Assembly: GCF_009735645.1 (NCBI RefSeq)
Contig: NZ_CP032550.1
Coordinates: 1,984,001-2,048,000 of the forward strand
Direction: 5' to 3'
Source: Microbacterium oryzae
Lineage (GTDB): Bacteria > Actinomycetota > Actinomycetes > Actinomycetales > Microbacteriaceae
Length of the DNA: 64,000 nt
Shown: piece after piece, positions 1,975 through 16,202 of the stretch
How the letters are laid out: each line of letters begins with the position of its first letter
Numbering within the stretch: position 1 is the stretch's first letter
Notes under the pieces: generated by a model
The model's input: only the letters and a program-made list of their open reading frames with translations
The model's database searches: none
Told to the model about the DNA's origin: nothing
Made by a program: the position numbers and the translations under genes

Positions 1975-3420
1975 TCACCCCTGGGTGAGGCCGGTCGCGC
2001 GGCGGATCGCCGACACCGGGGCGTCGGGGGTGAGGCGCATCCCCAGCATGTGCGTCCGTGCCGTGCGGCCCGGGGCCATCCCCCGCATGAACTCGGAATC
2101 GGCATGCCCGATCGAGCGGATGGAGCCGCACAGCCCCGCGAGCAGGAACAGCATCCCGCCGGCCATCGGAAAGGAGAGACCGTCGAAGAAGGCCAGCACG
2201 ACCGCGACGGCCAACATGGCCGCCGCGAGCACGCGCCCGTAGAGCTGAGCATCCTGGTGGGGCGACTGCCGCCTGACGGCGAAGGCGCTGGCCACGGCGG
2301 CGAGGATGAACAGAGCCAGTGCGGCGACGCCGGCGATGCCCGTCTCGGCCGTGCTCAGCGCCCACTGGTTGTCGAAGATGTAATAGCGCGGAAGGAACGT
2401 CCCGAAGCCCGCGCCGAGCACGGGCGACCCCGACAGGAAGAAGGGCAGCAGCTCGAGCGCCGCCACCCGCGACTGCGTGCTCGAGTCGTTGGAGGCGCCG
2501 CCGGCGAACATCCCGCTCAGCGTGCCGAACAGGCCCGGTATGGCGACGACCGCGGCAGCCGCGAGGAAGCCCGTGCCGAAGATGACGACGGCGCGATAGC
2601 GGCTCGGCAGAGCGGGGATGGTGGCCATCACCGCAACGGCGAAGCCGATGAGCGCCGAGCGCGAGACGGCGAGGAAGCACCCCAGGGCGAGGAGCGCGAG
2701 GGCGAACCACCAGCGCGCGCGCCCGGACTTCGCACGTTCGGGCGCGCGGGCGATGGCCGCGGCGACCGCGAGCGGCACGCACGCCGCGAGCACGGTCGCG
2801 TATTCCAGGGGGTGGGTCGCGGTGGCCGACGACCGGGTGAAGCCACCGCGGTCCGCGAGCCCCGTCGCGCTCCCGGTGAAGCCGGGAAGCCCGTCGAGGA
2901 AGCCGATCAGCGGCTGATCCGTGGCGAACTGCGCCAGCCCGAGCAGAGCCAGCAGCGCGCCGCCGACGACGATCCGTCGCGTCAGCTTCGTCAGGTCGCG
3001 CATCGTGGAGATCCCGTCGATGGCGACGAGGAAGACGCCGGCCCACGAGACGAGCCTGGCCACCGCCATGAAGGCGGTGCTGATCTGATCCTCCGGCTGC
3101 CCGCGCAGCAGCGCTGCGGCGAAGCCCAGCAGCAGTACGACTACGAGTGCGCCGAATGCCAGCCGCACCGGCTGCGAGGTCGGACGCACCGCGATCCCCC
3201 GTGCCTGCAGCCGGCTCATCGTCCACCACAGCATGAGCACCAGGCCCCAGAGGAAGGACGGCCGGCCGAGCCCTCCCAGCGCCGAGAGGGCGAGATTGGA
3301 CGGAAAGGCGAACAGCAGGACGAGGTAGATCGTGAGCATGGTCACGGCGTCCACGCCATGCCCCCGGATGACCGCGTGCGCTGATGCGGGAAGGGCGCTG
3401 TACGCCCCACGAAGGCTCAC
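1975..3420 (-). CDS. O-antigen ligase/polymerase-like membrane protein (Wzy family)
   Basis: 481 residues with about a dozen predicted membrane segments. The central part has the Wzy_C (PF04932) pattern: a large loop, then a helix with the signature LGCFLAVSRSALIGF. Such proteins polymerise lipid-linked repeat units or ligate glycans at the outer face of the membrane. The GTG start at 3420 overlaps the stop of the upstream chain-length gene (GTGA), making this the last gene of the operon that begins at 6002. In a monoderm host polymerase is the likelier role than lipid A ligase. A second possible start lies about 26 residues inside. Confidence 0.8.
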   Translation of the reverse strand: MSLRGAYSALPASAHAVIRGHGVDAVTMLTIYLVLLFAFPSNLALSALGGLGRPSFLWGLVLMLWWTMSRLQARGIAVRPTSQPVRLAFGALVVVLLLGFAAALLRGQPEDQISTAFMAVARLVSWAGVFLVAIDGISTMRDLTKLTRRIVVGGALLALLGLAQFATDQPLIGFLDGLPGFTGSATGLADRGGFTRSSATATHPLEYATVLAACVPLAVAAAIARAPERAKSGRARWWFALALLALGCFLAVSRSALIGFAVAVMATIPALPSRYRAVVIFGTGFLAAAAVVAIPGLFGTLSGMFAGGASNDSSTQSRVAALELLPFFLSGSPVLGAGFGTFLPRYYIFDNQWALSTAETGIAGVAALALFILAAVASAFAVRRQSPHQDAQLYGRVLAAAMLAVAVVLAFFDGLSFPMAGGMLFLLAGLCGSIRSIGHADSEFMRGMAPGRTARTHMLGMRLTPDAPVSAIRRATGLTQG

Positions 3421-4205: not shown

Positions 4206-4897
4206 GCGGTCACCTCTTTCCGGTTCCACCTGCGATTGCGTTGCGAGGCGCGCGTGCGCGCCGGCATCATGTCGTCGACGGCCGCCGCGCACCAGCCGCC
4301 GACGAGAAGGGCGACCGTGCCGAGCGCGGCGAGTGCCGCGAGCGTGGTCAGCCGTCCAGAGCCCACGTGGTAGATCTCGGTCGTCACCGGCTCGACGGTC
4401 GTCTGGAAGCGCGCCCTCGGCGCGATCCGCATGGCCTCCTGCTGCGACCGCGTCAGCTCGGCGACCCGGTCGAGCAGAGCGCGCTGCCGCGTCTCGACCC
4501 ACGCCGGTGTCGGCCCGACGATCTGCAGTTCGATGGCCGCGCGCGGGTAGCTCACGCTCCACTGCCCGCCGGTGCTCGGCAGGGAGACCAGAACACCCTC
4601 GCGGATGCCGGCCCCGTAGTACGGCGCCTCCGTGGTCGCGTAGCGCGGGGGCTCCTCTCCGTCGTTGATGACGCGGGCGACGGACGCCGCGAAGGCGATC
4701 GCCCCTTTCTGCGTCGACCCGTCCGTGTCGAAGGGGCCCGTGTAGTCACCCGGCGCCACGAAGGCGATGACAGTGCGGGTGGCATAGACGCCCCCCGCCG
4801 AGATCGATGAGGACGCGAACAGCCCGACACCGAGGAACACGGCAACGACCACGTACCACCGCCGGAGCATCACGCCGAGAAGCTCACGCACGGTCAC
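4202..4897 (-). CDS. Wzz/chain-length-determinant-like membrane protein, upstream paralogue
   Basis: 231 residues from a GTG at 4897. That start is chosen because AAGGAG lies 7 bases upstream; longer forms would overlap the previous gene far more. The protein starts MTVRELLGVMLRRWYVVVAV (membrane segment 1), has an extracytoplasmic domain, and a second membrane segment (TTLAALAALGTVALLVGG) followed by a basic tail. Topology matches Wzz/YveK chain-length regulators, though the external domain is divergent. It overlaps the preceding glycosyltransferase by 14 bp and the next gene by 4 bp. Two different copies side by side suggest a heteromeric assembly. Confidence 0.65.
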   Translation of the reverse strand: MTVRELLGVMLRRWYVVVAVFLGVGLFASSSISAGGVYATRTVIAFVAPGDYTGPFDTDGSTQKGAIAFAASVARVINDGEEPPRYATTEAPYYGAGIREGVLVSLPSTGGQWSVSYPRAAIELQIVGPTPAWVETRQRALLDRVAELTRSQQEAMRIAPRARFQTTVEPVTTEIYHVGSGRLTTLAALAALGTVALLVGGWCAAAVDDMMPARTRASQRNRRWNRKEVTA

Positions 4898-6002
4898 GAG
4901 CGCGCTCCTTGTCTCCGTGTTCGGAGCCAGCGACCTCCGAGAGGACGCGACCGATTCCCTCGCTGAAGACGGCGTGCGACCTGCGCTCGGCAAGAGCTCG
5001 GCCCCGCCGTCCCATCTCCGCGGCGCGCTCGGGGTCGTTCCAGAGCTCGACGATCGCCCTTCGGAGGGCGGCGACGTCGCCCTGAGGAACCCACAGTCCT
5101 TCGACGCCGTGTACGAAGGCGTCGCGCTGACCCTCCACGGCCGACACGATCACCGCTCTGCCCATGGCCCACGCCTCGTTCATCGAGGTGATGCCGTTGT
5201 CGCTGGTGGTGGGCTGCAGCGGCACGATGACGAAGCGCGAGCGCTCGTAGAGCGCCCGGAGCTCGACCGGCGGCATCGTTCCGAACGTCACGTTGTCGGG
5301 AACGCTCTCCTCGCCAGCGCGATCGACCTCGCCGGCGTTCCACCAGTCCGGACGCCCGGTGTCGAGCACCCCCGCGATGTGGCAGGGGATGCCGGTGCCT
5401 TCGAGCGCGGCGACGAGGGTCGCGTAGTCGCGCATCTCGCCCCCGGCCGCCGAGATCGTCGTCTGCGCGACGTCGCGACGCGCGCGCCAGAAGTCGACAT
5501 CGAGAGTCCAGGGGAGCGCGACGAGCTTGTCCGCCGGCACGCCGAGCTCCTCGACTGCGAACTCCCGCTGAGCTGCGGGCGGAAGGATGATCCTCGCCAG
5601 GTGCGAGTGGACGCGCTTCAGCAGAATCGCCTTCTTGGGCTCCGACACCCGGGTGAGCAATGCGACCACGGGCATGCGACGGCGCGTGAGCTTGAGCAGG
5701 GACGCGAGCACGAGCGCCACGTCCGCAACGCTCCAGCAGAAGACGACGTCGTAGCGATCACCGACGCGGTACGCCTCCAGCACCTGCACCATCCAGATCG
5801 GCAGCCGGCGGTAGACCGCGTGAAGCCACCGCGGCGGGTTCGTGCGCAGGCGCTGGTCCAGGTAGTGGATGTCGGCGTCGACGTCCGTGATCCAAGCGGA
5901 GGGCTGCGCGCCCCGCGCACGGAGCTCGGGCAGCTCGTCGGGGTACGGGGGGAAGAAGAGGGCATTCGGGATCAGAAGCACACGCGTGCGCTCGCCGCTC
6001 AT
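4884..6002 (-). CDS. GT-B glycosyltransferase (GT4-like)
   Basis: 372 residues. The N-terminal Rossmann start RVLLIPNALFFPPYP and the C-terminal half, with SRFVIVPLQPTTSDNGITSMNEAWAMGRAVIV, give the E-x7-E-type donor-sugar site of GT-B retaining enzymes. Cytoplasmic addition of one sugar to a lipid-linked repeat unit is likely. It is the first main gene of the operon 6002 to 1975. Its ATG overlaps the stop of a 37-codon reading frame (ATGA), and a roughly 200-base structured leader lies in front. The sugar specificity is not readable. Confidence 0.75.
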   Translation of the reverse strand: MSGERTRVLLIPNALFFPPYPDELPELRARGAQPSAWITDVDADIHYLDQRLRTNPPRWLHAVYRRLPIWMVQVLEAYRVGDRYDVVFCWSVADVALVLASLLKLTRRRMPVVALLTRVSEPKKAILLKRVHSHLARIILPPAAQREFAVEELGVPADKLVALPWTLDVDFWRARRDVAQTTISAAGGEMRDYATLVAALEGTGIPCHIAGVLDTGRPDWWNAGEVDRAGEESVPDNVTFGTMPPVELRALYERSRFVIVPLQPTTSDNGITSMNEAWAMGRAVIVSAVEGQRDAFVHGVEGLWVPQGDVAALRRAIVELWNDPERAAEMGRRGRALAERRSHAVFSEGIGRVLSEVAGSEHGDKERARDRA

Positions 6003-6112
6003 GACCTCGGACCCGATTCCCGCCGACCGGCGAGACGTGCGCCCGGCGCGGACCGGACTGAGGCCCGCTCCCGCCCCCGCAAATGGACATGATTCAGCGC
6101 ATCAGAAAACAT
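5999..6112 (-). CDS. Possible 37-residue leader peptide coupled to the glycosyltransferase
   Basis: An ATG with GGGGAG 5 bases upstream opens a 37-codon frame (MFSDALNHVHLRGRERASVR...) whose TGA overlaps the glycosyltransferase ATG. The peptide is basic and low in complexity and matches no family I know. It may simply carry ribosomes into the operon (translational coupling). It could also be an artefact of high-GC sequence. Confidence 0.35.
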   Translation of the reverse strand: MFSDALNHVHLRGRERASVRSAPGARLAGRRESGPRS

Positions 6113-6130: not shown

Positions 6131-6179
6131 GCCGCGCCCGGTAGCGCGGCCGACGACGCCTCGCCCGGATGCGAGGCAT
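6131..6179 (-). promoter_or_regulatory. Tandem hairpins in the leader of the polysaccharide operon
   Basis: Read on the minus strand, a stem of 7 perfect pairs (extendable to 9 with one G-U) with loop ATCCGG spans 6156-6179. It is followed by a second 7-bp stem with loop TACCGG at 6131-6150. The first hairpin shares its apex CGC-ATCCGG-GCG with the hairpin in front of the flippase operon, on a different stem sequence. They sit just downstream of the shared two-part motif, so they would lie near the 5' end of the mRNA. Confidence 0.6.
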
Positions 6180-6193
6180 TCGCCGTCACAGGA

Positions 6194-6222
6194 GAAGAGG
6201 CGCGGCATGCGCCCCTGATACA
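6194..6222 (-). promoter_or_regulatory. Copy A of the two-part element TGTATCAGG-N14-CTCTTC
   Basis: On the minus strand TGTATCAGG (6222-6214), 14 bases, then CTCTTC (6199-6194). It lies between the terminator of the PIG-L gene and the glycosyltransferase operon, exactly where that operon's promoter should be. Half-site lengths and spacing fit a -35/-10 pair of an alternative sigma factor. A regulator-binding site is the other option. Confidence 0.6.
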
Positions 6223-6226
6223 TGGG

Positions 6227-6260
6227 AGCGTGGCGGCGACCTTGCGGCCGCCGCCACGCT
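6227..6260 (-). terminator. Terminator hairpin after the PIG-L deacetylase gene
   Basis: A perfect 12-bp stem (6227-6238 with 6249-6260) and a 10-base loop, 6 bp past the stop codon of the PIG-L gene on the minus strand. It isolates that gene from the downstream polysaccharide operon. Confidence 0.7.
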
Positions 6261-6266
6261 TCGCAC

Positions 6267-9077
6267 TCACGGAGTGGCTGGCGCTCCGTTGTAGGTCGAG
6301 ATCTCCGCCAGCCCGACGTTGCCGGTGCTGCCCGACACCGCCGTCACCGTGAAGCGAAGCGACGTCGTGGTTCGCGCCGGGAAGGTCACGATCGTGGCGG
6401 CCCCGCTGTTGTTCAACGCGGGAACCGTCACCGTCGACCCGTCGGAGAAGGTCAGGGTTCCCCCCAGCACCTGGTCGGAGCCGTTCGGCCGGTCATAGAG
6501 GTACACCCGGTCGATGGTCGTGGCCTGCGTCCAGTTCAGACGCAACCACGCTCCGCTGCGCTCGCCGTCGGACGACCACTCCGCCCCGGCGTTGGCGGGG
6601 TACCCCGCCGCCACCGCGTCGATCGCCTGCGTCGCCGCCTGGCCGGGCACCTGGGACGACGCCGACACGAGCGCGTTGCGCGCCGAGTTCGGGCCGCTGT
6701 AGGCGGCCGGCCCGGGTGCCGGCGCGGTGCCCGTCTGAACGGGCTCGCCACTGTATGCCTCCATCTCCGCCAGCCCGGCGTTCTCGGTGTTGGCGGAAGT
6801 CGCCGTCACCGTGAACCGGACCGACGTCGTCGCCCGCGCTGGGAACGCCACGATCGTGGCGGAGCCGTTGTTGTTCAGCGCCGGCACGGTCACGGTCGAG
6901 CCGTCCGAGAACGTCAGCGTGCCACCTTGGATGTGGTCGGCCCCGTTGGGCCGGTCGAAGAGCTGCACACGGTCGAGAGTCTGCGCCTGCGTCCACTGCA
7001 GCTGCAGCCACGCGCCCGCACGCTGTCCGTCGGAGGACCACTCGGCTGCGGAGTTGCCGGGGTAGCCCGCCACCACCGCATCGATCGCCGCCGTCGCCGG
7101 CTGACCGGTCGCCTGCGATGACGCCGACACCAGCGCGTTCCGCGCCGCGTTGGGTCCGCTGTACGCCGCCGGGCCCGGTGTCGGCGTCGGGGTCGGCGAC
7201 GGGTCGCCGTTGTACGTCTCGATCTCCGCGAGCCCGATGTTGTCGGTGCTGCCGGAGGCCGAGGTCACCGTGAACCGCACCGACGTCGTCGACCGCGCCG
7301 GGAACGTCACCTCCGTGACGGAGCCGTTGTTGTTCAGCGCGGGCACGGTCACCGTCGAGCCGTCCGAGAACGTCAACGTCCCGCCCAGCACCTGATCCGC
7401 CGCATTCGGTCGATCGAAGAGACGGACCCGGTCGAGAGTCTGCGCCTGCGTCCACTGCAGCTGCAGCCACGCGCCCGCACGCTGTCCGTCGGAGGACCAC
7501 TCGGCTGCGGAGTTGCCGGGGTAGCCCGCCACCACCGCATCGATCGCCGCCGTCGCCGGCTGACCGGTCGCCTGCGACGACGCCGACACCAGCGCGTTCC
7601 GCGCCGCGTTGGGTCCGCTGTACGCCGCCGGGCCCGGTGTCGGCGTCGGAGTGGGTGTCGGCGTCGGCGTCGGCGTCGGAGTCGGCGTCGGCGTCGGCGT
7701 CGGCGTCGGAGTCGGCGTCGGAGTCGGAGTCGGAGTCGACGTCGGGTTGCCGTTGTACACCTCGATCTCCGCCAGTCCGACGTTCGCGGTCGCCGAGGAG
7801 GTCGCCGTCACCGTGAAGCGGATCGTGCGCGCGGCGCGGGCCGGGAAGGTGACCACCGTCGCCGAGCCGTTGTTGTTCAGCGCCGGCACCGTCACCGTCG
7901 AGCCGTCCGAGAACCGCAGCGTTCCACCCTGGATGTGATCGGATCCGTTGGGCCGGTCATAGAGGATTACTCGGTCGACTGTCTGCGGGTCCGCCCAGGC
8001 CAGCTCAAGCCATGCGCCGGAGCGCTGGGAGTCGGACGACCACTCGGCTGTGTCGTCGGCCGGGTAGCCGGAGACGACGGCGTCGATCGCGTTCGTGTCC
8101 TCCTGACCGTCGCTCTCCGACGATGCGCGCACGGTGGCGTTGCGCGCGATGTTCGGACCGTCGTACGGAGCGGGCCCCGGCAGGGGCGTGACAGCCGCTG
8201 GCAGGGGGGCGAGGTACTGCCGCTCCATCCACTGTGCTTCGACACCGCCAGGGCACGTGGTGTTCGGGCAGAGGAGCTGGTCGTACTTCGCGTAGCTGAG
8301 CAGAGCCGCCCGCTTGTCCTCCAGCGCCTGATCCGTCACGTTCGCCGGGGAGTTCTTCGACCCGTACCCCACGTACGCCCGCACCTCGCCGCGGTAGGCG
8401 TCGAGCGCCTCGACGGAGAACAGCGCGGCGGCACGGTGATCGGAATGGTCGCCCTGCCCGGTGCGGGCGTCCTGGATGCGGACGGTGCTCGGCTGCGTGT
8501 CGTCGAGGATGGCCGTCAGCGTCGCGAGCAGCTCGCTGCGTGTGTACGTGGCGGAGGCGTCCAGCGCGCGCAGCGACGGGATGACCCCGTCCCACAGCCG
8601 TTGCAGGGACGTGCCTCCGGTGCTCGAGAATCCGCTGCCGCTGAGACCGCCGTCCGGCAGCCTCAGGAAGATGTCGACGACCTGCCCCGCACCGGGGCTG
8701 GTCACCGCCTGCACCGTGCGACCGGCGTATGTGGGGCGCGAACTCGTCCATGTCGCGCCGGGTGCGAGCTCGAGCAGGGTCGCGTAGGCGGCCTGCGATC
8801 CGAGCTCCCGACGCTGCCAGTAGTCGGCGCTGCCTCCCGAGTCGCCGGCGGTGAGGAACACGTTCACGAGGCAGTCGCCTGCGGCGAGACTGTTCTGGAT
8901 GTCCGGGTTCATGAACAGCAGGTCATCATCCTGGTGCGCGATGATCGACAGATCCGTCTCCGCGCAGTCGGCCGCGCTCGCGGTCGTCGGGATGCCGAGG
9001 ACCGCCGCTCCCGCGACGAGGACGACGGTCAGCGCGATCCCCAGCCATCGTCCCGTGCGGGACAGGTAATCAGACAC
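6267..9077 (-). CDS. Secreted PIG-L family deacetylase with four discoidin-like repeats
   Basis: 936 residues. The GTG at 9077 is chosen because GGGGAG lies 7 bases upstream and a signal peptide follows (hydrophobic 11-29, cleavage after TASA at about 36). Residues 43-300 are a PIG-L/LmbE domain with SIIAHQDDDLLF and a DHSDH motif, the zinc ligands of N-acetylglucosamine deacetylases. Then come four beta-rich repeats of about 145 residues (each GPNxARNAxVxASS...EWSSD...FSDGSTVTVPALNN...), similar to F5/8-type galactose-binding modules. Linkers are proline-threonine-rich, the longest about 17 TP units. It likely deacetylates an extracellular or wall glycan while bound to it. It lies 44 bp behind the flippase operon. 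Confidence 0.8.
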   Translation of the reverse strand: MSDYLSRTGRWLGIALTVVLVAGAAVLGIPTTASAADCAETDLSIIAHQDDDLLFMNPDIQNSLAAGDCLVNVFLTAGDSGGSADYWQRRELGSQAAYATLLELAPGATWTSSRPTYAGRTVQAVTSPGAGQVVDIFLRLPDGGLSGSGFSSTGGTSLQRLWDGVIPSLRALDASATYTRSELLATLTAILDDTQPSTVRIQDARTGQGDHSDHRAAALFSVEALDAYRGEVRAYVGYGSKNSPANVTDQALEDKRAALLSYAKYDQLLCPNTTCPGGVEAQWMERQYLAPLPAAVTPLPGPAPYDGPNIARNATVRASSESDGQEDTNAIDAVVSGYPADDTAEWSSDSQRSGAWLELAWADPQTVDRVILYDRPNGSDHIQGGTLRFSDGSTVTVPALNNNGSATVVTFPARAARTIRFTVTATSSATANVGLAEIEVYNGNPTSTPTPTPTPTPTPTPTPTPTPTPTPTPTPTPTPTPGPAAYSGPNAARNALVSASSQATGQPATAAIDAVVAGYPGNSAAEWSSDGQRAGAWLQLQWTQAQTLDRVRLFDRPNAADQVLGGTLTFSDGSTVTVPALNNNGSVTEVTFPARSTTSVRFTVTSASGSTDNIGLAEIETYNGDPSPTPTPTPGPAAYSGPNAARNALVSASSQATGQPATAAIDAVVAGYPGNSAAEWSSDGQRAGAWLQLQWTQAQTLDRVQLFDRPNGADHIQGGTLTFSDGSTVTVPALNNNGSATIVAFPARATTSVRFTVTATSANTENAGLAEMEAYSGEPVQTGTAPAPGPAAYSGPNSARNALVSASSQVPGQAATQAIDAVAAGYPANAGAEWSSDGERSGAWLRLNWTQATTIDRVYLYDRPNGSDQVLGGTLTFSDGSTVTVPALNNSGAATIVTFPARTTTSLRFTVTAVSGSTGNVGLAEISTYNGAPATP
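6970..7190. repeat. 221-bp internal duplication, copy 1 (copy 2 at 7429-7649)
   Basis: The two segments inside the PIG-L gene are 459 bp (153 codons) apart and differ at one silent position (GAT/GAC) by my reading. The adjoining parts of the same domain repeats are clearly more divergent. This indicates recent duplication or gene conversion between binding modules 2 and 3. Confidence 0.9.
7637..7739. repeat. Hexanucleotide microsatellite encoding a (TP)n linker
   Basis: About 17 tandem units of GTCGGC/GTCGGA (plus-strand view) code for Thr-Pro repeats between the first and second binding modules of the PIG-L protein. The six-base period keeps frame, so slippage would change linker length only. 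Confidence 0.9.
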
Positions 9078-9121
9078 GGTGGTACTCCCCAGATGTGTTG
9101 AAGGCACCGAGCGGGCGGGGC

Positions 9122-10543
9122 TCATGGCCGCGCCGCCGCTCGGAGGATCTCCGCGTGGTCGGCGACCATCGCGGGTTCGGTGAAGGGCGCCGGCGTGGCG
9201 GGCACTCGCTGTCGAGCCATCCGACTCACGCGCAGCAGCGCCCGTGCGAACTCCGCGCGGTTGCGCTGATGGCGCTGACGACGGGCGCGAGCGAGTTCGC
9301 GCTGCGATGCGTCCGGCAGTGCGCTCGGCACGACCTCGCCCCAGCCGTCTGCGGCTTCCACCAGCTGCCGCGTGAAGCCGACATCGGACAGCACGACGGG
9401 GAGGCCGCACGAGACGGCCTCTAGCGCCGAGATGGGCCCGCCCTCGGAGAACGAGTCGAGCGCATAGACGTCGGCGGCGGCGAAGAGCACCCAGGGGTCG
9501 GATTCGCCCAGGAGATGCACGCGGTGGCCCCGATCGTGAGCGCGTCGCAGCACATCGGCTCGACGCACCTCGAGCCAGCTGCTCGGCGCCCCTGCCAGGA
9601 CGAGACGCAGCCGCGGCTCGCTCTCCGCCGCGAGCAGGAAGGCGTCGACGAGGCCCGCCGCGTTCTTCTGGTCGCTGAAGCGCTGCAGTCCGACGACGAG
9701 GATGTCGTCGTCCTCCAGATCGGGGACAACCGCCGAGACGAGACCCCGCGCCGCCGGGCGGGAGAGCGGACTGCGCGAGCTCGCCCGGCTCACGCCGTTG
9801 ACGACTGTGCGCGGGAGCGGACGTCCCGTCCGCTCGGCGACGAATCGTGCGACCGCGTCGCTCACGGCGATGGACGATGGCGCGGCGTCGACGAGATCCC
9901 TGAGGTGCTGCCACGCGGAGTCGTCCAGATAGGACTCGAGCGCGTGGAAGACCGGCACCGTGCGATGCCCGAAGGCGATCAATGGGGTGACCAGCTCAGG
10001 ATCTGCCCGATGCAGCTGGATGACGTCGGGTCCGACGAGGCGAAGCCTGTCTGTGGTCTCGTGAGGAGCGACCACGTCGACGTCGACGCCCGCCGCCCGA
10101 AGCCGACCGGCGGTGGCGCCATCCTGAGTGGCGAGCACATGCACCTCCACACCGTGAGCGGGCAGGCCGAGCGCCAGGGTCTCGACGACCGTCTCGACTC
10201 CTCCCGAGTCGAGCGCGCCGGCGACGAGCACGCAGCGCAATGCCCGCCGACTCCCGTCTGACGAGCCGGCCTGGACGACGAGAGCCATCTCCTCTGCCGC
10301 CCGCGCTGAATCGGCCCGTGCGGGCGCTGCCGCAACGGCCGGCAGTCCGGAGCGAACGGCGACGACTCCGAGCAGGCGGTTCCAGCGCCCGAACCGCCAC
10401 CGCGCGGGCACGAGGTCCGTCACCACGGTGAGCGCCCAGACTGCGAGGACGGCCGAGGATCGACATGCGCGGACGACAGCCCGCGGGAAGCGCGCCATGG
10501 GGTGATGGTCCCACTTCCGGCGCTTGTTCGTCAGCACCTTCAT
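9122..10543 (-). CDS. GT4-type glycosyltransferase with an N-terminal extension
   Basis: 473 residues. The ATG at 10543 overlaps the flippase stop (ATGA). The first 95 residues are basic and partly hydrophobic (VLAVWALTVVTDLVPARW), perhaps membrane-associating. The GT-B core follows from RALRCVLVAGALDSGGVETVV (acceptor domain) to YALDSFSEGGPISALEAVSCGLPVVLSD, the E-x7-E donor motif of GT4 retaining enzymes. It should add one sugar in the cytoplasm to the unit exported by the adjacent flippase. Substrate unknown. Confidence 0.8.
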   Translation of the reverse strand: MKVLTNKRRKWDHHPMARFPRAVVRACRSSAVLAVWALTVVTDLVPARWRFGRWNRLLGVVAVRSGLPAVAAAPARADSARAAEEMALVVQAGSSDGSRRALRCVLVAGALDSGGVETVVETLALGLPAHGVEVHVLATQDGATAGRLRAAGVDVDVVAPHETTDRLRLVGPDVIQLHRADPELVTPLIAFGHRTVPVFHALESYLDDSAWQHLRDLVDAAPSSIAVSDAVARFVAERTGRPLPRTVVNGVSRASSRSPLSRPAARGLVSAVVPDLEDDDILVVGLQRFSDQKNAAGLVDAFLLAAESEPRLRLVLAGAPSSWLEVRRADVLRRAHDRGHRVHLLGESDPWVLFAAADVYALDSFSEGGPISALEAVSCGLPVVLSDVGFTRQLVEAADGWGEVVPSALPDASQRELARARRQRHQRNRAEFARALLRVSRMARQRVPATPAPFTEPAMVADHAEILRAAARP

Positions 10544-11949
10544 GCGCTCATCGCCCGGAGCTCGCGCTTTCCCCATCGCCAGACGACGGCGAGGTAGACA
10601 GCGACGGCCGCGAACCCGCCGACCAGCAGCGCCGGAAGAGCACTGCCGATCAGTGCCACGGCGAGCCCCGCGACCGCGAAGGCGGGGACCGTGGCGACCG
10701 TCGGCCACACAGCACCGCGCAGCAGCGCGCCCAATCGCACACCGCAGCGGCGGAGGGCGATGAGGTACATGGGGAGGATGACCACCAGCGCGACCACGAC
10801 GTGGACCCACGCCGCGCCGACGATCCCGAACGAGGTGGTCGCGAGGACCATCCCGACCACCAGTGCGAGCAGCCAGGCGATCTGCACCCACAGCACGGGG
10901 CGCGCGTGCCCGCGCGCGTAAAGGAAGCCGTTGAAGATGTCGAAGAGCACCCGGAGCGCGCCGAAGACGCCCAACGCGGAGAGCACGGGAGCCGACGTCA
11001 GCCAGCGTTCCCCGTACAGCACAGAGATCAGCGGCGCGCTCACCACAGCGAGGACGGCGCCGGCAGGCAGCGCACCCGCCCAGCCGAGCGCGGTCACCCT
11101 CGCGAGGCTCGACGACGCGTCGTCCGTGCGGGAGAAGTATGGAAGGGCGATAGCGCGCACGCTCTGCGAGAGGGCGCTCATCGGCCAATTCGAGATGTTG
11201 AAAGCGAGAACGTAGTAGCCCAGGGCAGTCGCGCCGGCGATGCGCACGAGGACGATGTTGTCGACGTTGAGGAGTCCCCACGCCAGCAGGTTCGCCGTGG
11301 CGATGGGGAGGCCGAACGCCAGCACCGGTCGCACCCGCTCGCGGTCGAGACCGTAGCGCGGCCTCTCCTTGGCGAGGACGAATTGGAGGGCCGACGAGAC
11401 GACCTGAGCGCTCACACGCCCAATGGCGAGGCCCATCACGCCGAACCCGGCGAACACCAGCAGCAGGGTGACGACGGTGGAGACGACGAAGTCGACGACG
11501 CCGATCCAGAACAGCTCGCGCTGCTGGAAGCGTCGCAGCAGCATGGCGTAGGGCACGATGCTGACGCCGGCGAGAAACAGCGTGAGCGCGAGGACCGCGA
11601 TGGCGGGCGCGGCGGCTTCGCTGCCGAGGACCTGCGCGACGAAGCCGCTTGAAGCGATCGCGAGCGCGGTCGTGACCGCGCCGCTGACCATGCCCAGGGT
11701 GGCGACCGTCGGGGCGATCTTCTCGGGCTCCTCGGATCGGATGAGGTCCGCGGAGAGCCCGAGGTCCGCGACCGTCATGAGGATGGACTGCACGGTGAGC
11801 GCGACGGCGTACACGCCGAACTGCTCGGGAGTGAGGATGCGCGCCAGCACGATCCCGACGACGAGGCTCCCCATCCGCAGGACGATGGAGCTCACGCCGC
11901 CCCAGGCGGCGCCCCGCACCGCTTTGGACTTCAGCTCGACGTCCGTCAT
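10540..11949 (-). CDS. Wzx-type polysaccharide flippase (MOP superfamily)
   Basis: 469 residues with 12-14 membrane segments. The N-terminus (SKAVRGAAWGGVSSIVLRMGSLVVG, ARILTPEQFGVYAVALTV) is the characteristic start of polysaccharide transporters of the PST/Wzx group. It would flip undecaprenyl-linked repeat units across the membrane for polymerisation by the Wzy protein encoded in the next operon. GAGGAAGGG lies about 9 bases before the ATG. A leader of roughly 150 bases carries the shared two-part motif and hairpin. It is the first gene of the operon flippase, glycosyltransferase and probably PIG-L. Confidence 0.85.
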   Translation of the reverse strand: MTDVELKSKAVRGAAWGGVSSIVLRMGSLVVGIVLARILTPEQFGVYAVALTVQSILMTVADLGLSADLIRSEEPEKIAPTVATLGMVSGAVTTALAIASSGFVAQVLGSEAAAPAIAVLALTLFLAGVSIVPYAMLLRRFQQRELFWIGVVDFVVSTVVTLLLVFAGFGVMGLAIGRVSAQVVSSALQFVLAKERPRYGLDRERVRPVLAFGLPIATANLLAWGLLNVDNIVLVRIAGATALGYYVLAFNISNWPMSALSQSVRAIALPYFSRTDDASSSLARVTALGWAGALPAGAVLAVVSAPLISVLYGERWLTSAPVLSALGVFGALRVLFDIFNGFLYARGHARPVLWVQIAWLLALVVGMVLATTSFGIVGAAWVHVVVALVVILPMYLIALRRCGVRLGALLRGAVWPTVATVPAFAVAGLAVALIGSALPALLVGGFAAVAVYLAVVWRWGKRELRAMSA

Positions 11950-12039
11950 CGCCGCCGCCCTTCCTCAGAAGAGCGAGCAGATGCAGATCGCGCGACCGCG
12001 GACCCAGATTTCCCCATGTGCGTTTCCCCAGAACCGGAA

Positions 12040-12066
12040 GAGCGTCCGCCCGGATGCGAGACGCTC
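12040..12066 (-). promoter_or_regulatory. Leader hairpin of the flippase operon
   Basis: Minus-strand stem of 7 bp (GAGCGTC with GACGCTC), a one-base bulge, then CGC-ATCCGG-GCG. The apex is identical to the hairpin in front of the other polysaccharide operon (6156-6179) while the lower stem differs in sequence but still pairs, which is covariation. The distance from CTCTTC to the apex is 19-20 bases in both. Confidence 0.6.
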
Positions 12067-12077
12067 CCTTCAGAGGG

Positions 12078-12106
12078 GAAGAGCCGTAGACGCGATCCCT
12101 GATACA
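12078..12106 (-). promoter_or_regulatory. Copy B of the two-part element
   Basis: Minus strand: TGTATCAGG (12106-12098), 14 bases, CTCTTC (12083-12078). It lies about 130 bp upstream of the flippase start. Both halves are identical to copies A and C. Confidence 0.6.
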
Positions 12107-12161
12107 TCTCCCGCGCCACGGCGGTGATCACGACGCGCCCGGGAACTCGTTCGGGTCGGCG

Positions 12162-12190
12162 TGTATCAGGAGGGGTGCGGGGTGCTCTTC
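12162..12190 (+). promoter_or_regulatory. Copy C of the two-part element, divergent from copy B
   Basis: Plus strand: TGTATCAGG (12162-12170), 14 bases, CTCTTC (12185-12190). It points away from copy B, towards a stretch with no recognisable sense-strand gene that ends in a strong hairpin. Confidence 0.55.
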
Positions 12191-12194
12191 CTCA

Positions 12195-12366
12195 TCGACG
12201 GGGACCACGCCGCAGCATGTCTGCGGCCACAGACTCCGGTGCCGATGCCGACCCCCGCGGCGCCCGCACCGGAAACCTCGGCCCTCGCGGCCGAGCAGGG
12301 TGGGGAGGGCTGCAACCCTCACACCGCCCCGGTGGCGCGCCGGAAGCGCCACCGGGGCCTTTCTCT
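12195..12366 (+). ncRNA. Candidate short transcript between copy C and the terminator
   Basis: If copy C is a promoter, transcription would begin near 12195 and end at the hairpin and U-rich tail by about 12366, giving an RNA of about 170 bases. It would hold a perfect 7-bp hairpin (GCCGCAG, loop CATGT, CTGCGGC; 12209-12227) near its 5' end, in the same place as the hairpins of the two polysaccharide leaders. No reading frame with a ribosome-binding site is seen. Ends are inferred. Confidence 0.35.
12326..12358. terminator. Hairpin terminator at the end of the CHAT gene
   Basis: Perfect 13-bp stem (12326-12338 with 12346-12358), loop GCCGGAA. On the plus strand it is followed by CTTTCTCTTCTC, so it would stop transcripts arriving from copy C. 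It also lies 11 bp beyond the CHAT stop codon on the minus strand. Confidence 0.75.
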
Positions 12367-12368
12367 TC

Positions 12369-14927
12369 TCAGAATCCGGAGCCGTAGCAGAGGAACGGCG
12401 AATCGTGGCCGGTCTCGGCGACCGCCGCCGCAAGCGCCTCTGCCGGGTCGAGCCGGGCGGCGAGCCCCTCGTGCATGACGCTCAGCAGCTCGCACGCCAC
12501 GTCGTCGGCGACGGTGACGGGGGCGGCGATCACGCAGCGGGCACCGGCGTGCAGCCAGGCCCTCGCCATCCCGATCGCCTCTTCGCCCCATCGCACCGAC
12601 GACCGACCGAGCTCGCACGCGGAGAGCACCACGAGGTCCGGTGCCTTCGCGATGGCGTCGATGTCGTACCCGAACAGCGTGCCGTCTGCCAGCTCGAATC
12701 CCGACAGCAACGGCGAGTCGGCGGAGTGGCGGCCGTGCGCGACGACGTGCAGCACATCCACCTCCTCGGCGAGCGCCGTGGCGTGCTCGACGCGGGCCGC
12801 GCCATCCGCCAGAACATGGACGGCGTCTCCGCCCGAGCCGCGCGCGCGGCGCTCCGCCTCGAGCCACCACGGCCGCGCGCCGGACTGGGCTTCCTCCGTG
12901 CCACGCGCGATCCGCGGCCCGACGACGAACCCGGCGCGCTCGAGCGCGAACGGCGTGCGGCTGCCGTGCGCCCAGCGCGACGCGGAGCGGACGTTCGTGA
13001 TCACTCGCCCGCGGAGGGCGGGCAGCATCCCCCACGGCGTGCCGTGCAGTTCGCCCGGAACCGTGATGAGAACGCGGCGCGCATCGCCGGCGATCCGCAT
13101 CGCATCGTCGACGAGCGCCTGCGACAGCCGAGCCAGTCGCCGCTCCAGGGTCTCCCGGATGAGGCGCCCGGCCGGGCTGCCGTGAGTCGCGGCCGCCGCA
13201 TTCAACTCGCTGTGGAGGCCGTCGTGCAGGTCGCGCACCGCGCGCCAGGAGAGGTCCACCAGCGCCGGCGGAGCCTGCCGACCCACCACGAGGCACGTGA
13301 GCCGACCACGCGCGTACACGAAGCTCAGCAGCACCGTCTCGTCGTCGAGGTACTCGCGGAACTCGTGCAGCGTCAGCGACGGCGGCCCGTCGATGGACGA
13401 GGTCCCGACCCACTGCCGCTCGCTCACGCGACGTCGCAGGGCCACCACGCGCGGATCGTCCGCCCAGTCCGGCGTCGCCAGCTCGGCGCGCAGCGCGCGG
13501 ATCTCCGCGAGGTCGGCGGCGTGCCGAGGGTCCTGCGGAGGTCGCACCGGCGACACCTGCTGGGTGAAGTGGCGCGCGTACTCCGACCACTCGAACACGA
13601 CCTCCGGCTTCCCGGAGCGGATGCTGGCCGCGATCCCCTCGGCGAAGACGCCGGTGCCGTGGATCGCCGCTGACGACAGCATGTCGAGCGATCCGAAGGA
13701 GCGCTGCCACGCGGACACCTCGCGGATCCCGTCCGCGGCATGCCGCCGCGCGTCGGCGTCGCGCCCGAGCGCCGCGGACCGCGCGGCCCGCGCCTCGTGG
13801 GCGAGGACGCGCACCGAAAGCGGGTCGTCGGGATCGAGCCGCGGGGCACGGCGAGGCGGATGGCCGCTGCGCGACAGGGCGGCATCCCGCACGTACCCCA
13901 GGGCACGGGCTTCCACTCGGAAGCCGAAGCGCGACAGCCTGCGCGCCGTGTGCGCGCACGCCGCCTCCAGGTCCGCTGACACGGGCTTCGACGACGTCCG
14001 ATCGGCTGTGGGCGTGAGCAGCGCGCGCAGCCGCACGCCGTCGGCCCGCACCTCCCAGGAGTCGCTGCCGAGCGCGCGGAAGCGCTGGGCCGCGCGCTGC
14101 GCGACCTGCGCCGCCCTGGCCGGGTCGTACCCCAGCAGCGTCTGCGCGAGCTGCAGCTCGGCCTCGCCGCGGGTCTGCGGCCGACGCAGGCGCCCGAAGG
14201 CGCGTGCGGCCTGCTCCAGCAGCGCCGCCGACTCGTGCAGCTGGCCGGCCTCGCGCAGCGCTTCCGCGCGGTCGAGATCGGAGATCGCCGCAGCCAGCGG
14301 CGACTCCCGCCCGAGTTCGTCGCGCGCGGCGTTCATCTGGGTGAGCGCGAGCACGAGGTCGCCCGCCAGCAGGGCGGTGTACCCGAGGTTGTGGCGCGCC
14401 TGCGCCTCCCCCGCGGCGTCGCCCAGTTCGGCGAACAGCTCGGCCGCCGCCGCGAACTCGTCTGCGCATTCCCGCAGCCGGCGCCGCTGCAGCAGGGCGA
14501 CGCCGTGGTTGAGGAGCACGTTCGCGCGAGCGACGGGGTCCTCGACGAGGGCCACGGCCGTCCGGAACAGCGCGAGTGCGGCGTCCACTCCGCCGCGGTG
14601 GAGCACGAGCGTGCCGAGCTGCCCGGAGAGGATGCCCCGGGTGGCGGGCGGCAGCTCGGGCAGCGCCAGCGCCGTCCGGCACAGCAGCTCCGCGCCCGAG
14701 GTGTCGCCGAGCTGCCCCATGGCGTAGGCCAGCGGCGCGCTGATCCGCGCCCGCAGCCCGTCGCCGTCCGCGCTCTCGAGGGCGTGCGCGAGGATCCGTC
14801 GCGCGTTGCGCAGTCGCCCTCGGCCGTTCTCGGCGATGCCGCGGCTCAGGAGCTCCTCGGCGGAGAGCGCCTCGAGACCGGAGCGCGCCCAGTACTCACC
14901 CGGCGCAGCACGGCCGTGGTCTGACAT
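12369..14927 (-). CDS. TPR-CHAT protein (caspase-like peptidase domain)
   Basis: 852 residues. About residues 25-330 are helical TPR-like repeats (for example ARANVLLNHGVALLQRRRLRECADEFAAAAELF). The C-terminus is a CHAT domain (PF12770) with the catalytic pair visible: His731 in LHVVAHGRH and Cys771 in VVLSACELG. CHAT proteins are caspase-clan cysteine peptidases, some acting in defence or programmed death when a sensor releases them. No signal peptide is visible, so it is cytoplasmic. It follows the sigma factor and the 154-residue gene at 81 bp. Substrate and trigger are unknown. The sigma factor-CHAT pairing recurs in actinobacteria as far as I recall. Confidence 0.85.
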   Translation of the reverse strand: MSDHGRAAPGEYWARSGLEALSAEELLSRGIAENGRGRLRNARRILAHALESADGDGLRARISAPLAYAMGQLGDTSGAELLCRTALALPELPPATRGILSGQLGTLVLHRGGVDAALALFRTAVALVEDPVARANVLLNHGVALLQRRRLRECADEFAAAAELFAELGDAAGEAQARHNLGYTALLAGDLVLALTQMNAARDELGRESPLAAAISDLDRAEALREAGQLHESAALLEQAARAFGRLRRPQTRGEAELQLAQTLLGYDPARAAQVAQRAAQRFRALGSDSWEVRADGVRLRALLTPTADRTSSKPVSADLEAACAHTARRLSRFGFRVEARALGYVRDAALSRSGHPPRRAPRLDPDDPLSVRVLAHEARAARSAALGRDADARRHAADGIREVSAWQRSFGSLDMLSSAAIHGTGVFAEGIAASIRSGKPEVVFEWSEYARHFTQQVSPVRPPQDPRHAADLAEIRALRAELATPDWADDPRVVALRRRVSERQWVGTSSIDGPPSLTLHEFREYLDDETVLLSFVYARGRLTCLVVGRQAPPALVDLSWRAVRDLHDGLHSELNAAAATHGSPAGRLIRETLERRLARLSQALVDDAMRIAGDARRVLITVPGELHGTPWGMLPALRGRVITNVRSASRWAHGSRTPFALERAGFVVGPRIARGTEEAQSGARPWWLEAERRARGSGGDAVHVLADGAARVEHATALAEEVDVLHVVAHGRHSADSPLLSGFELADGTLFGYDIDAIAKAPDLVVLSACELGRSSVRWGEEAIGMARAWLHAGARCVIAAPVTVADDVACELLSVMHEGLAARLDPAEALAAAVAETGHDSPFLCYGSGF

Positions 14928-15008
14928 CCGCCCTCCCCCGGCCGGTCGATCCGGTCACTACCGTATCCGGGAATCCTGCTCACCCGAAGACGGCGGGGGA
15001 ATTCGACG

Positions 15009-15473
15009 TCAGATGTCGAACCAGGGCGTCGTGAACTCGCGCATCGCCTCGTTCTGCTGCACGACCATCCGCACGCGGGAGCGGCCGCGACGGACGTGGT
15101 CGAACGCGAAGCGGCCGTCGCCGACCGTCTGGGCGCTCCACTCCTCGTCCTCCTGCGCCAGGCGCGCCGCGAGGACCGCCGGTCGCGACCATCCGTCGAC
15201 GCGGACGACACCCGATTGCGGCGCTGCAAGGTGCAGCAGCACCTCGGTGCCGTCGCCCTCGAACTGCACGGTGCGGTTGCCGTCCTCGCCGCGGACGGCG
15301 ACCTCGACGCCCTCCACGAGGGTCAGCAGCTGGAACTCGCGGTTGAGGTCGTCAACGGCGACGGCCGCGATCATGCGCTCGGCGAGTCCGGCGGGCACCG
15401 GGTCGACGTCCTCCCACGCGCTTCGCAGCGCGGCGAACAGCTCGCGGTTTTCTCCGCCGTCGGTCCCCGTCAT
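15009..15473 (-). CDS. Small protein of the sigma factor-CHAT operon, function unknown
   Basis: 154 residues, starting at an ATG that overlaps the sigma factor stop (ATGA). The first 45 residues are helical and charged (RELFAALRSAWEDVDPVPAGL). The rest is beta-rich (VEVAVRGEDGNRTVQFEGDG..., DGRFAFDHVRRGRSRVRMVV). No cysteines and no membrane segment are seen, so it is not a classical zinc-binding or membrane anti-sigma factor. Tight coupling to the sigma factor still makes a regulator of it, or an adaptor to the CHAT protein, plausible. Confidence 0.7.
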   Translation of the reverse strand: MTGTDGGENRELFAALRSAWEDVDPVPAGLAERMIAAVAVDDLNREFQLLTLVEGVEVAVRGEDGNRTVQFEGDGTEVLLHLAAPQSGVVRVDGWSRPAVLAARLAQEDEEWSAQTVGDGRFAFDHVRRGRSRVRMVVQQNEAMREFTTPWFDI

Positions 15474-16147
15474 GGGGTCCCCCCATCTCGCAGGTCTGAA
15501 TCCAGTTTCGCACGCAGCTTGGCAAGGCAGCGCTGGCGCGTGGGGCCGATGCTTCCCATCGGCATATGAAGGTCGGCGGCGATCTGCGCATAGTCAGGTC
15601 GATCGTCGAAGGCCACGATGCGCAGCAGCCGCTGACACCGCTCGTTGAGCGTCTGCACGGCGGTCCAGAGGCGATGCGACGTGTCGCGCTCGGCCACGTC
15701 TTCCTCGGCGGCGCGCTGGGTGGGCAGCCTTCCCTCGAGCTCGTCGTCGGGGAGGCTGTCGGCGCGCCGGTCGATCCGCGACACCCGCCACGCCTCGCGG
15801 CGCGCGGTCGTGCTGAGCCAGCCGTACACGGCGGTCGCGTGCGTGATCGACCCGTTCTTGCGCACGAGCGTGAGCCAGGTCGACTGGATGACGTCCTCGG
15901 CGGCGGCCTTCGGAAGACCGTAGGCCCGCACGTGGTGCCACAGCACAGGGGTCATGACCCGCACCAGCTCGTCGATCGCGCGCGGATCGCCGTCGCGCCA
16001 GCTCTCGAACGATCGCGCCGCGCGCTCCCAGCGTGCAGCAGCGACCCCGGAGTCGTGATCGGCATCGCTCTGCACGTCTTCGGGCGACGAGGAGAGCGTC
16101 CCCGGGGAGTCATCTCCCGAGGGGACCGACAGAGACAGGTCATCCAT
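15470..16147 (-). CDS. Sigma-70 family (ECF-type) RNA polymerase sigma factor
   Basis: 225 residues from the ATG at 16147 (MDDLSLSV...). An ATG 12 codons upstream (16183) is possible but would overlap the proposed promoter element. Region 2 spans about residues 55-125 (AIDELVRVMTPVLWHHVRAYG..AEDVIQSTWLTLVR). Region 4 follows at about 155-215 (LNERCQRLLRIVAFDDRPDYAQIAADLHMPMGSIGPTRQRCLAKL), a helix-turn-helix. It has no region 3, as in ECF factors. It heads the operon sigma, 154-residue protein, CHAT. A variant of the two-part element lies directly upstream, suggesting autoregulation. Confidence 0.85.
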   Translation of the reverse strand: MDDLSLSVPSGDDSPGTLSSSPEDVQSDADHDSGVAAARWERAARSFESWRDGDPRAIDELVRVMTPVLWHHVRAYGLPKAAAEDVIQSTWLTLVRKNGSITHATAVYGWLSTTARREAWRVSRIDRRADSLPDDELEGRLPTQRAAEEDVAERDTSHRLWTAVQTLNERCQRLLRIVAFDDRPDYAQIAADLHMPMGSIGPTRQRCLAKLRAKLDSDLRDGGTP

Positions 16148-16172
16148 GTCGCACTCATTGTGCCCATATACG

Positions 16173-16202
16173 GAAGGAGTCATGCAAATCCACCCTGATA
16201 CG
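16173..16202 (-). promoter_or_regulatory. Copy D (variant) of the two-part element before the sigma factor gene
   Basis: Minus strand: CGTATCAGG (16202-16194, 8 of 9 matches), 14 bases, then CTCCTTC in place of CTCTTC. Placed as a promoter it would start transcription 20-25 bases before the ATG at 16147. It is weaker than copies A-C but has identical spacing. Confidence 0.4.

Follow-up and report, generated by a model that had tools for sequence, protein, structure and literature searches.

Why the same two-part sequence element should precede two surface-polysaccharide operons and, as a variant, an ECF sigma factor gene is the question raised by this locus, a stretch of 64,000 nucleotides referred to below as the window. 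Sequence comparison indicates that the element is very probably a promoter, with TGTATCA at −35 and CTC at −10, that is read by the neighbouring ECF54-like sigma factor, which would switch on its own operon, an exopolysaccharide cluster and a short RNA.

The element, TGTATCAGG-N14-CTCTTC, was found with zero mismatches at three places in the window: site A (6194–6222, minus strand), site B (12078–12106, minus strand) and site C (12162–12190, plus strand). A fourth match with 3 mismatches, site D (16174–16202, minus strand; CGTATCAGG-N14-CTCCTTC), lies 5′ of the sigma factor gene and differs from the commonest motif form at its first base. When up to 3 mismatches were allowed, the window gave 4 matches against 0.47 expected, and 4 were reached in 0 of 100 shuffles. 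Across the single contig of 3,040,780 bases that makes up the genome, the exact pattern with spacings of 13–15 was found 3 times, each time inside the window, and its reversed control 0 times; from base composition, 0.0008 exact copies would be expected at spacing 14 and 0.0024 over the range 13–15. The 14-base stretches separating the two halves differ among the copies, and all four sites are intergenic by the gene calls of this analysis. The original observation of three identical copies with 14-base spacing, of a variant before the sigma gene and of placement in non-coding DNA is thus borne out, the variant being genuine. The motif boundaries it had drawn needed revision: the copies stand, but the conserved unit is the core (T/C)GTATCA-N16-CTC and not the full nine- and six-base halves, the final GG of the first half and the TTC being variable. 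This core has a −35/−10 layout and, as in ECF-type promoters, its two elements keep a fixed −35/−10 spacing and lie 5′ of the sigma gene and of its putative targets.

The whole genome was further scanned with a relaxed pattern (YGTATCAS-N14-16-CTCYN), which gave 9 matches and 0 in the reversed control. Seven of the nine fall inside 31 kb (1969418–2000202) together with the sigma operon and glycan genes, and the other 2 lie elsewhere in the genome. The clustered seven comprise sites A to D, two extra copies to the left of the window, namely E (genome position 1981904, plus strand; L153:17904) and F (1969418, plus strand; L153:5418), and one match that was discounted as lying inside a gene by our own ORF calling. 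The matches thus cluster at the glycan genes and the sigma gene.

Site D, the predicted autoregulatory promoter, is followed by the sigma factor gene (15470–16147, minus strand; 225 aa). The product qualifies as an ECF sigma factor by TIGR02937 (sigma70-ECF; 51.4 against a cut-off of 42.9) and matches PF04542 with 24.8 bits against a cut-off of 24, Pfam listing no region-4 family; it is 98% identical to its M. oryzae counterpart, where site D is also kept. Judged by its CHAT and subtilase neighbours, it resembles group ECF54. The following gene (15009–15473, minus strand) encodes a small conserved protein, a candidate anti-sigma partner, whose structure model (mean pLDDT 75.6) has two N-terminal helices and a beta domain and fits, without proving, an inhibitor role. 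This protein matched no Pfam or NCBIfam family, a PDB sequence search gave nothing useful and Foldseek returned no match below E 0.001. The third gene (12369–14927, minus strand) encodes a CHAT-domain protease-like protein (CHAT 82.7 bits, cut-off 24) with a TPR-like N terminus (TPR_12 21.5 bits, below the cut-off of 30.1), for which the PDB sequence search likewise gave nothing useful. A subtilase gene is present in 79 of 80 relatives' fetched stretches and absent from the window's operon and from M. album; the one S8 match in the window's own genome lies away from the sigma operon. PADLOC matches were only weak, so there is no case for a defence system.

Conservation was analysed in a comparison set of 198 genomes of the genus Microbacterium, 109 of which encode a homologue of the sigma protein (E up to 1e-25); loci were fetched for 80 of the 108 sigma-positive genomes other than our own. 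Relatives with the sigma–CHAT operon keep the motif, which stands 5′ of the sigma gene in 77 of the 80 (CTC at 14 or 15) and at most 520 bases after the CHAT gene in 71 (always CTC at 14). Counting the window as well (81 loci), [TCG]GTATCA precedes the sigma gene in 79, the CTC distance being 14 in 66 loci and 15 in 12. Over the same 81, a site lies within 520 bases after CHAT in 72, with CTC at exactly 14 in 72 of 72; 8 loci are without it, and one further contig ends too early. The sigma gene of genomes G168 and G147 lacks an upstream copy, and in M. album (G182) the CTC at this site is displaced to 17. The string TGTATCA was found before the sigma gene in 71 of 80 relatives, compared with a mean of 0.46 and a maximum of 35 for 200 anagrams, and after CHAT in 66 of 80, compared with a mean of 0.28 and a maximum of 7.

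The presence of the motif also tracks that of the sigma gene across genomes. Searches of the 198 genomes with GTATCAGG-N13-16-CTCTTC gave 26 matches in 21 genomes (reversed control, 4), and the tight pattern TGTATCAS-N15-CTCYTB gave 177 matches (reversed control, 25) in 98 genomes. The tight pattern was carried by 91 of 109 sigma-positive genomes and by 7 of 89 sigma-negative ones (Fisher p = 5e-29, a value that ignores shared descent). Among the 7 sigma-negative genomes with a match, G003 also has, some 115 nt past its motif, the terminator sequence of the CHAT-linked RNA, and is therefore probably a broken assembly from which the operon is missing. Outside the genus, the 20 best-scoring sigma loci from other families of the order (L253–L272) were inspected, and GTATCA was found 5′ of the sigma gene in 11, with CTC at the same distance in 7, CAC in 3 and neither in 1; 3 of the 7 CTC-bearing sites lie 264–374 bases upstream of the matched part of the sigma gene. 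The other 9 of these best-scoring loci showed no GTATCA upstream of the sigma gene, which in some of them is directly 3′ of another gene. In L259 and L271, GTSFAAP is readable, which we take to be the subtilase motif. The occurrence of the motif 5′ of the sigma gene throughout the genus and again in other families supports, at the level of sequence, the earlier proposal that this sigma factor reads the element.

At the glycan genes, promoter-like site A lies 5′ of an operon of GT4/polymerase type. The predicted transcript begins with a hairpin (6155–6180, minus strand) bearing the loop GCATCCGGGC, followed by a 37-codon leader ORF (5999–6112, minus strand) that overlaps by ATGA the start of a GT4-type glycosyltransferase gene (4884–6002, minus strand). 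Farther downstream is a gene for a Wzy-like O-antigen ligase/polymerase (1975–3420, minus strand; PF04932 31.2 bits, just below the cut-off of 31.7). Promoter-like site B has the same arrangement on the minus strand, with a hairpin carrying loop GCATCCGGGC (12040–12066), a 23-codon leader ORF (11946–12017) overlapping by ATGA the start of a Wzx/MOP-type polysaccharide flippase gene (10540–11949), a second gene for a GT4 glycosyltransferase (9122–10543) and a third for a PIG-L deacetylase-like protein with F5/8 type C (DUF7402) repeats (6267–9038, start approximate). Left of the window, E precedes a gene for a GT2 glycosyltransferase with two GT2 stretches, and F precedes an exopolysaccharide priming transferase gene (EPS_sugtrans; TIGR03025 score 373 bits, cut-off 295.55).

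The leaders share more than their promoter-like sites. A scan of 84 kb from the window's own genome found the loop GCATCCGGGC 3 times, only in leaders A, B and E and about 50 nt after the site start. In the 1.18 Mb fetched, which came mostly from relatives, overlapped in part and included E, it was counted 37 times over the two strands. The stems enclosing it differ among leaders, and in the M. oryzae leader the loop is closed by CA/TG in place of CG/CG. In 6 of 7 leaders (A, B, F, M. barkeri, G168 and M. oryzae), an ORF of 17–37 codons, with its start codon chosen by us, shares an overlap of ATGA or GTGA with the gene after it; in leader E, the ATG is the start codon of the GT2 gene.

Similar wiring is observed in the window's own clade. 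In a sigma tree of the 81 loci, M. oryzae and four outgroups, the window groups with M. oryzae, M. barkeri, G168 and M. album in one clade (support 0.854), and in these four nearest relatives sites stand ahead of genes for surface glycans or surface proteins. The motif lies 5′ of a Bac_transf gene in M. barkeri (G037) and G168 and, in M. album, ahead of an epimerase gene and, with a spacing of 15, of a GT2 gene. Sites C and D are both present in M. oryzae, whose site at the position of B precedes the gene of a large protein with DUF1349, GH43_C2 and DUF4082. Among the minority of off-operon matches in other genomes that were annotated, glycan wiring was seen in this clade, and in most of the genus the tight matches are mainly the sigma and after-CHAT sites. 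Placing A and B where promoters of polysaccharide operons should be agrees with the GT4/polymerase and flippase operons that follow directly, and the claim that the copies sit at glycan operons holds for A, B, E and F but not for C, which has no evident gene downstream. The proposed coupling of the sigma factor to glycan synthesis likewise stands for this clade; across the genus, the usual second site, after CHAT, precedes a structured RNA. In place and strand, it is site B that matches this after-CHAT site of the relatives.

Site C, which points towards the 3′ end of the CHAT gene, is kept in M. oryzae and M. barkeri, and the stretch after it is conserved in both, with paired changes in two hairpins as judged by eye. 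A putative RNA from C would span 12198–12369 (plus strand, with predicted start and strand, as the transcribed strand may be either), and the stretch contains a terminator-like hairpin (12326–12358) followed by a T-rich run. A hairpin in 12326–12369, between the CHAT 3′ end and C, may terminate both converging transcripts.

At L067:9441–9600, and at equivalent positions in most of the 71 relatives with an after-CHAT site, there is a conserved structured RNA that has GGGG in its loops and also contains a terminator hairpin. A single strong hairpin (≤ −17 kcal/mol) follows the CTC by 88–161 nt in 71 of 71, a count made without a shuffled control. In a 30-sequence alignment, 5 of 12 pairs of the terminator hairpin changed on both sides, and RNAalifold on the MAFFT alignment recovered the terminator hairpin only. 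An outer stem closes just 5′ of the hairpin in the 66 relatives that have the hairpin at 85–150 nt; in an anchored swap test, its own arms gave −13.4 kcal/mol compared with −10.0 (sd 0.36) for cross-species arms, and 0 of 2000 permutations were as low. An earlier wide-window swap test of this stem was weak (own −19.0, other species −17.1). These comparisons indicate that the predicted RNA has a covarying stem. GGGG runs number 2.9 per RNA compared with 1.6 in mononucleotide shuffles, and GGGG is predicted to be unpaired more often than other G (0.53 versus 0.30). M. album, at least one of the 71, has an after-CHAT site that leads into a gene instead of the RNA. Rfam searches of the first 30 kb of the window and of five relatives produced nothing credible, and judged by the search of these five the RNA appears to be a previously undescribed structured RNA. 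The 24-mer of its terminator loop was found in 7 of 119 genomes, as a single copy in each. The RNA may encode a small peptide, since its longest ORF is slightly longer than in shuffles (40.5 versus 32.4).

Two candidate partners of the GGGG loops were rejected. Pairing with CCCC at the leader starts was set aside, since transcription probably begins downstream of the CCCC stretch. CsrA, encoded in 47 of 198 genomes, cannot be the general partner because carriers of the RNA such as G155, G190 and G012 are without it. One CsrA gene is located at G000:C1:390813–390968.

Several features distinguish a promoter of the sigma factor from other readings of the element. The promoter-like fixed spacing after CHAT, a fixed strand (the full motif is on the opposite strand after CHAT in 1 of 80), the position of the CTC about 20 bases 5′ of the conserved sigma-gene ATG in most relatives inspected and the return of the motif 5′ of the sigma gene in other families make it improbable that the element is the operator of a separate regulator, travelling with the sigma operon because that regulator does, while a different sigma factor starts transcription. 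Such an arrangement draws what probability it has from the fact that binding by the sigma factor is deduced from the DNA and from the dissimilarity of the element to the usual ECF promoter, GGAAC/CGTC. An accessory regulator may bind the same site.

Slightly less probable again is a glycan link that arose by local coincidence, with the sigma factor controlling only its own operon and the RNA and with A, B, E and F as recent copies of no effect. The restriction of tight matches mainly to sigma and after-CHAT sites in most of the genus would agree with this, but one genome has four copies before glycan genes, three of them sharing the leader hairpin loop, and sites at glycan or surface genes are also present in M. 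barkeri, G168, M. album and M. oryzae. Chance or copying of a repeat element can practically be dismissed, as 3 exact copies compare with 0.0008 expected, the anagram means fall far below the counts for TGTATCA even though the top anagrams reached 35 and 7, and the stretches between the halves differ.

With the element taken as a promoter of the ECF54-like sigma factor, the sigma factor would switch on its own operon (sigma factor, small protein and CHAT protein) from D, activate the exopolysaccharide cluster from A, B, E and F and drive the short RNA from C. By analogy, the small protein probably restrains sigma activity until CHAT-linked proteolysis releases it. At the 5′ end of the glycan transcripts there would be a folded leader and, in most cases, a short ORF whose 4-base overlap couples it to the first gene; the sequence of these parts is plain, and their function is suggested by it. 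It is an even question whether the ECF54–CHAT module is mainly an RNA-output device, with a new GGGG-loop small RNA genus-wide, of which one clade copied the promoter to exopolysaccharide genes, the shared leader loop and coupled peptides adding post-transcriptional control.

Parts of this arrangement have counterparts in known systems. Polysaccharide is controlled by ECF sigma factors of the AlgU type. Small RNAs are driven by RpoE (PMC8103513). The sigma factor here is similarly predicted from sequence to have envelope or polysaccharide targets and, as with RpoE, a small RNA, whereas its operon partners differ from those of AlgU and RpoE. In the type III-E CRISPR system Craspase/CASP-sigma, an ECF sigma factor is held by an inhibitor that is cut by a TPR-CHAT protease (PMC10028731); a TPR-CHAT protein and an ECF sigma factor also occur together here, a likeness by described parts in which the small protein would be the inhibitor. 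For ECF54 of Actinobacteria, regulation by proteolysis has been proposed, and the accessible text of PMC8999054 gives a model sequence without experiment, promoter, regulon or RNA. As described there, the sigma gene adjoins a CHAT gene, here together with a small beta-rich protein, and a subtilase gene is found in nearly all relatives; unlike that description, with its CHAT, subtilase and carboxypeptidase-type neighbours, the window's operon is without a subtilase and its small protein is without a Pfam family. Among the accessible papers, a literature search returned no experimental study of ECF54 or of an ECF sigma factor with CHAT, and a published ECF54 promoter motif may exist in the two main classification papers. 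ECF54, for which the accessible part of PMC8999054 only proposes proteolytic control, would gain from the present comparison a testable promoter, a candidate exopolysaccharide regulon in one clade and a conserved RNA output. In a single genome, one predicted promoter sequence stands ahead of four or more glycan transcription units, and the role of the actinobacterial caspase-like CHAT protein becomes testable by a simple reporter.

Other arrangements were seen around the motif. In many relatives (e.g. L094), a near-palindromic TGTGATCACA or TGTGGACACA stands immediately 5′ of the sigma-gene ATG, and it was not noticed at the after-CHAT site. In G101, G099, G073 and G110 (L013, L015, L017 and L022, at about position 1501), the motif lies, outside the sigma operon, shortly 5′ of a start codon. 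In G014, two copies diverge ahead of genes (L099:1850, minus strand, and 1862, plus strand), an arrangement that recalls the pair of sites B and C.
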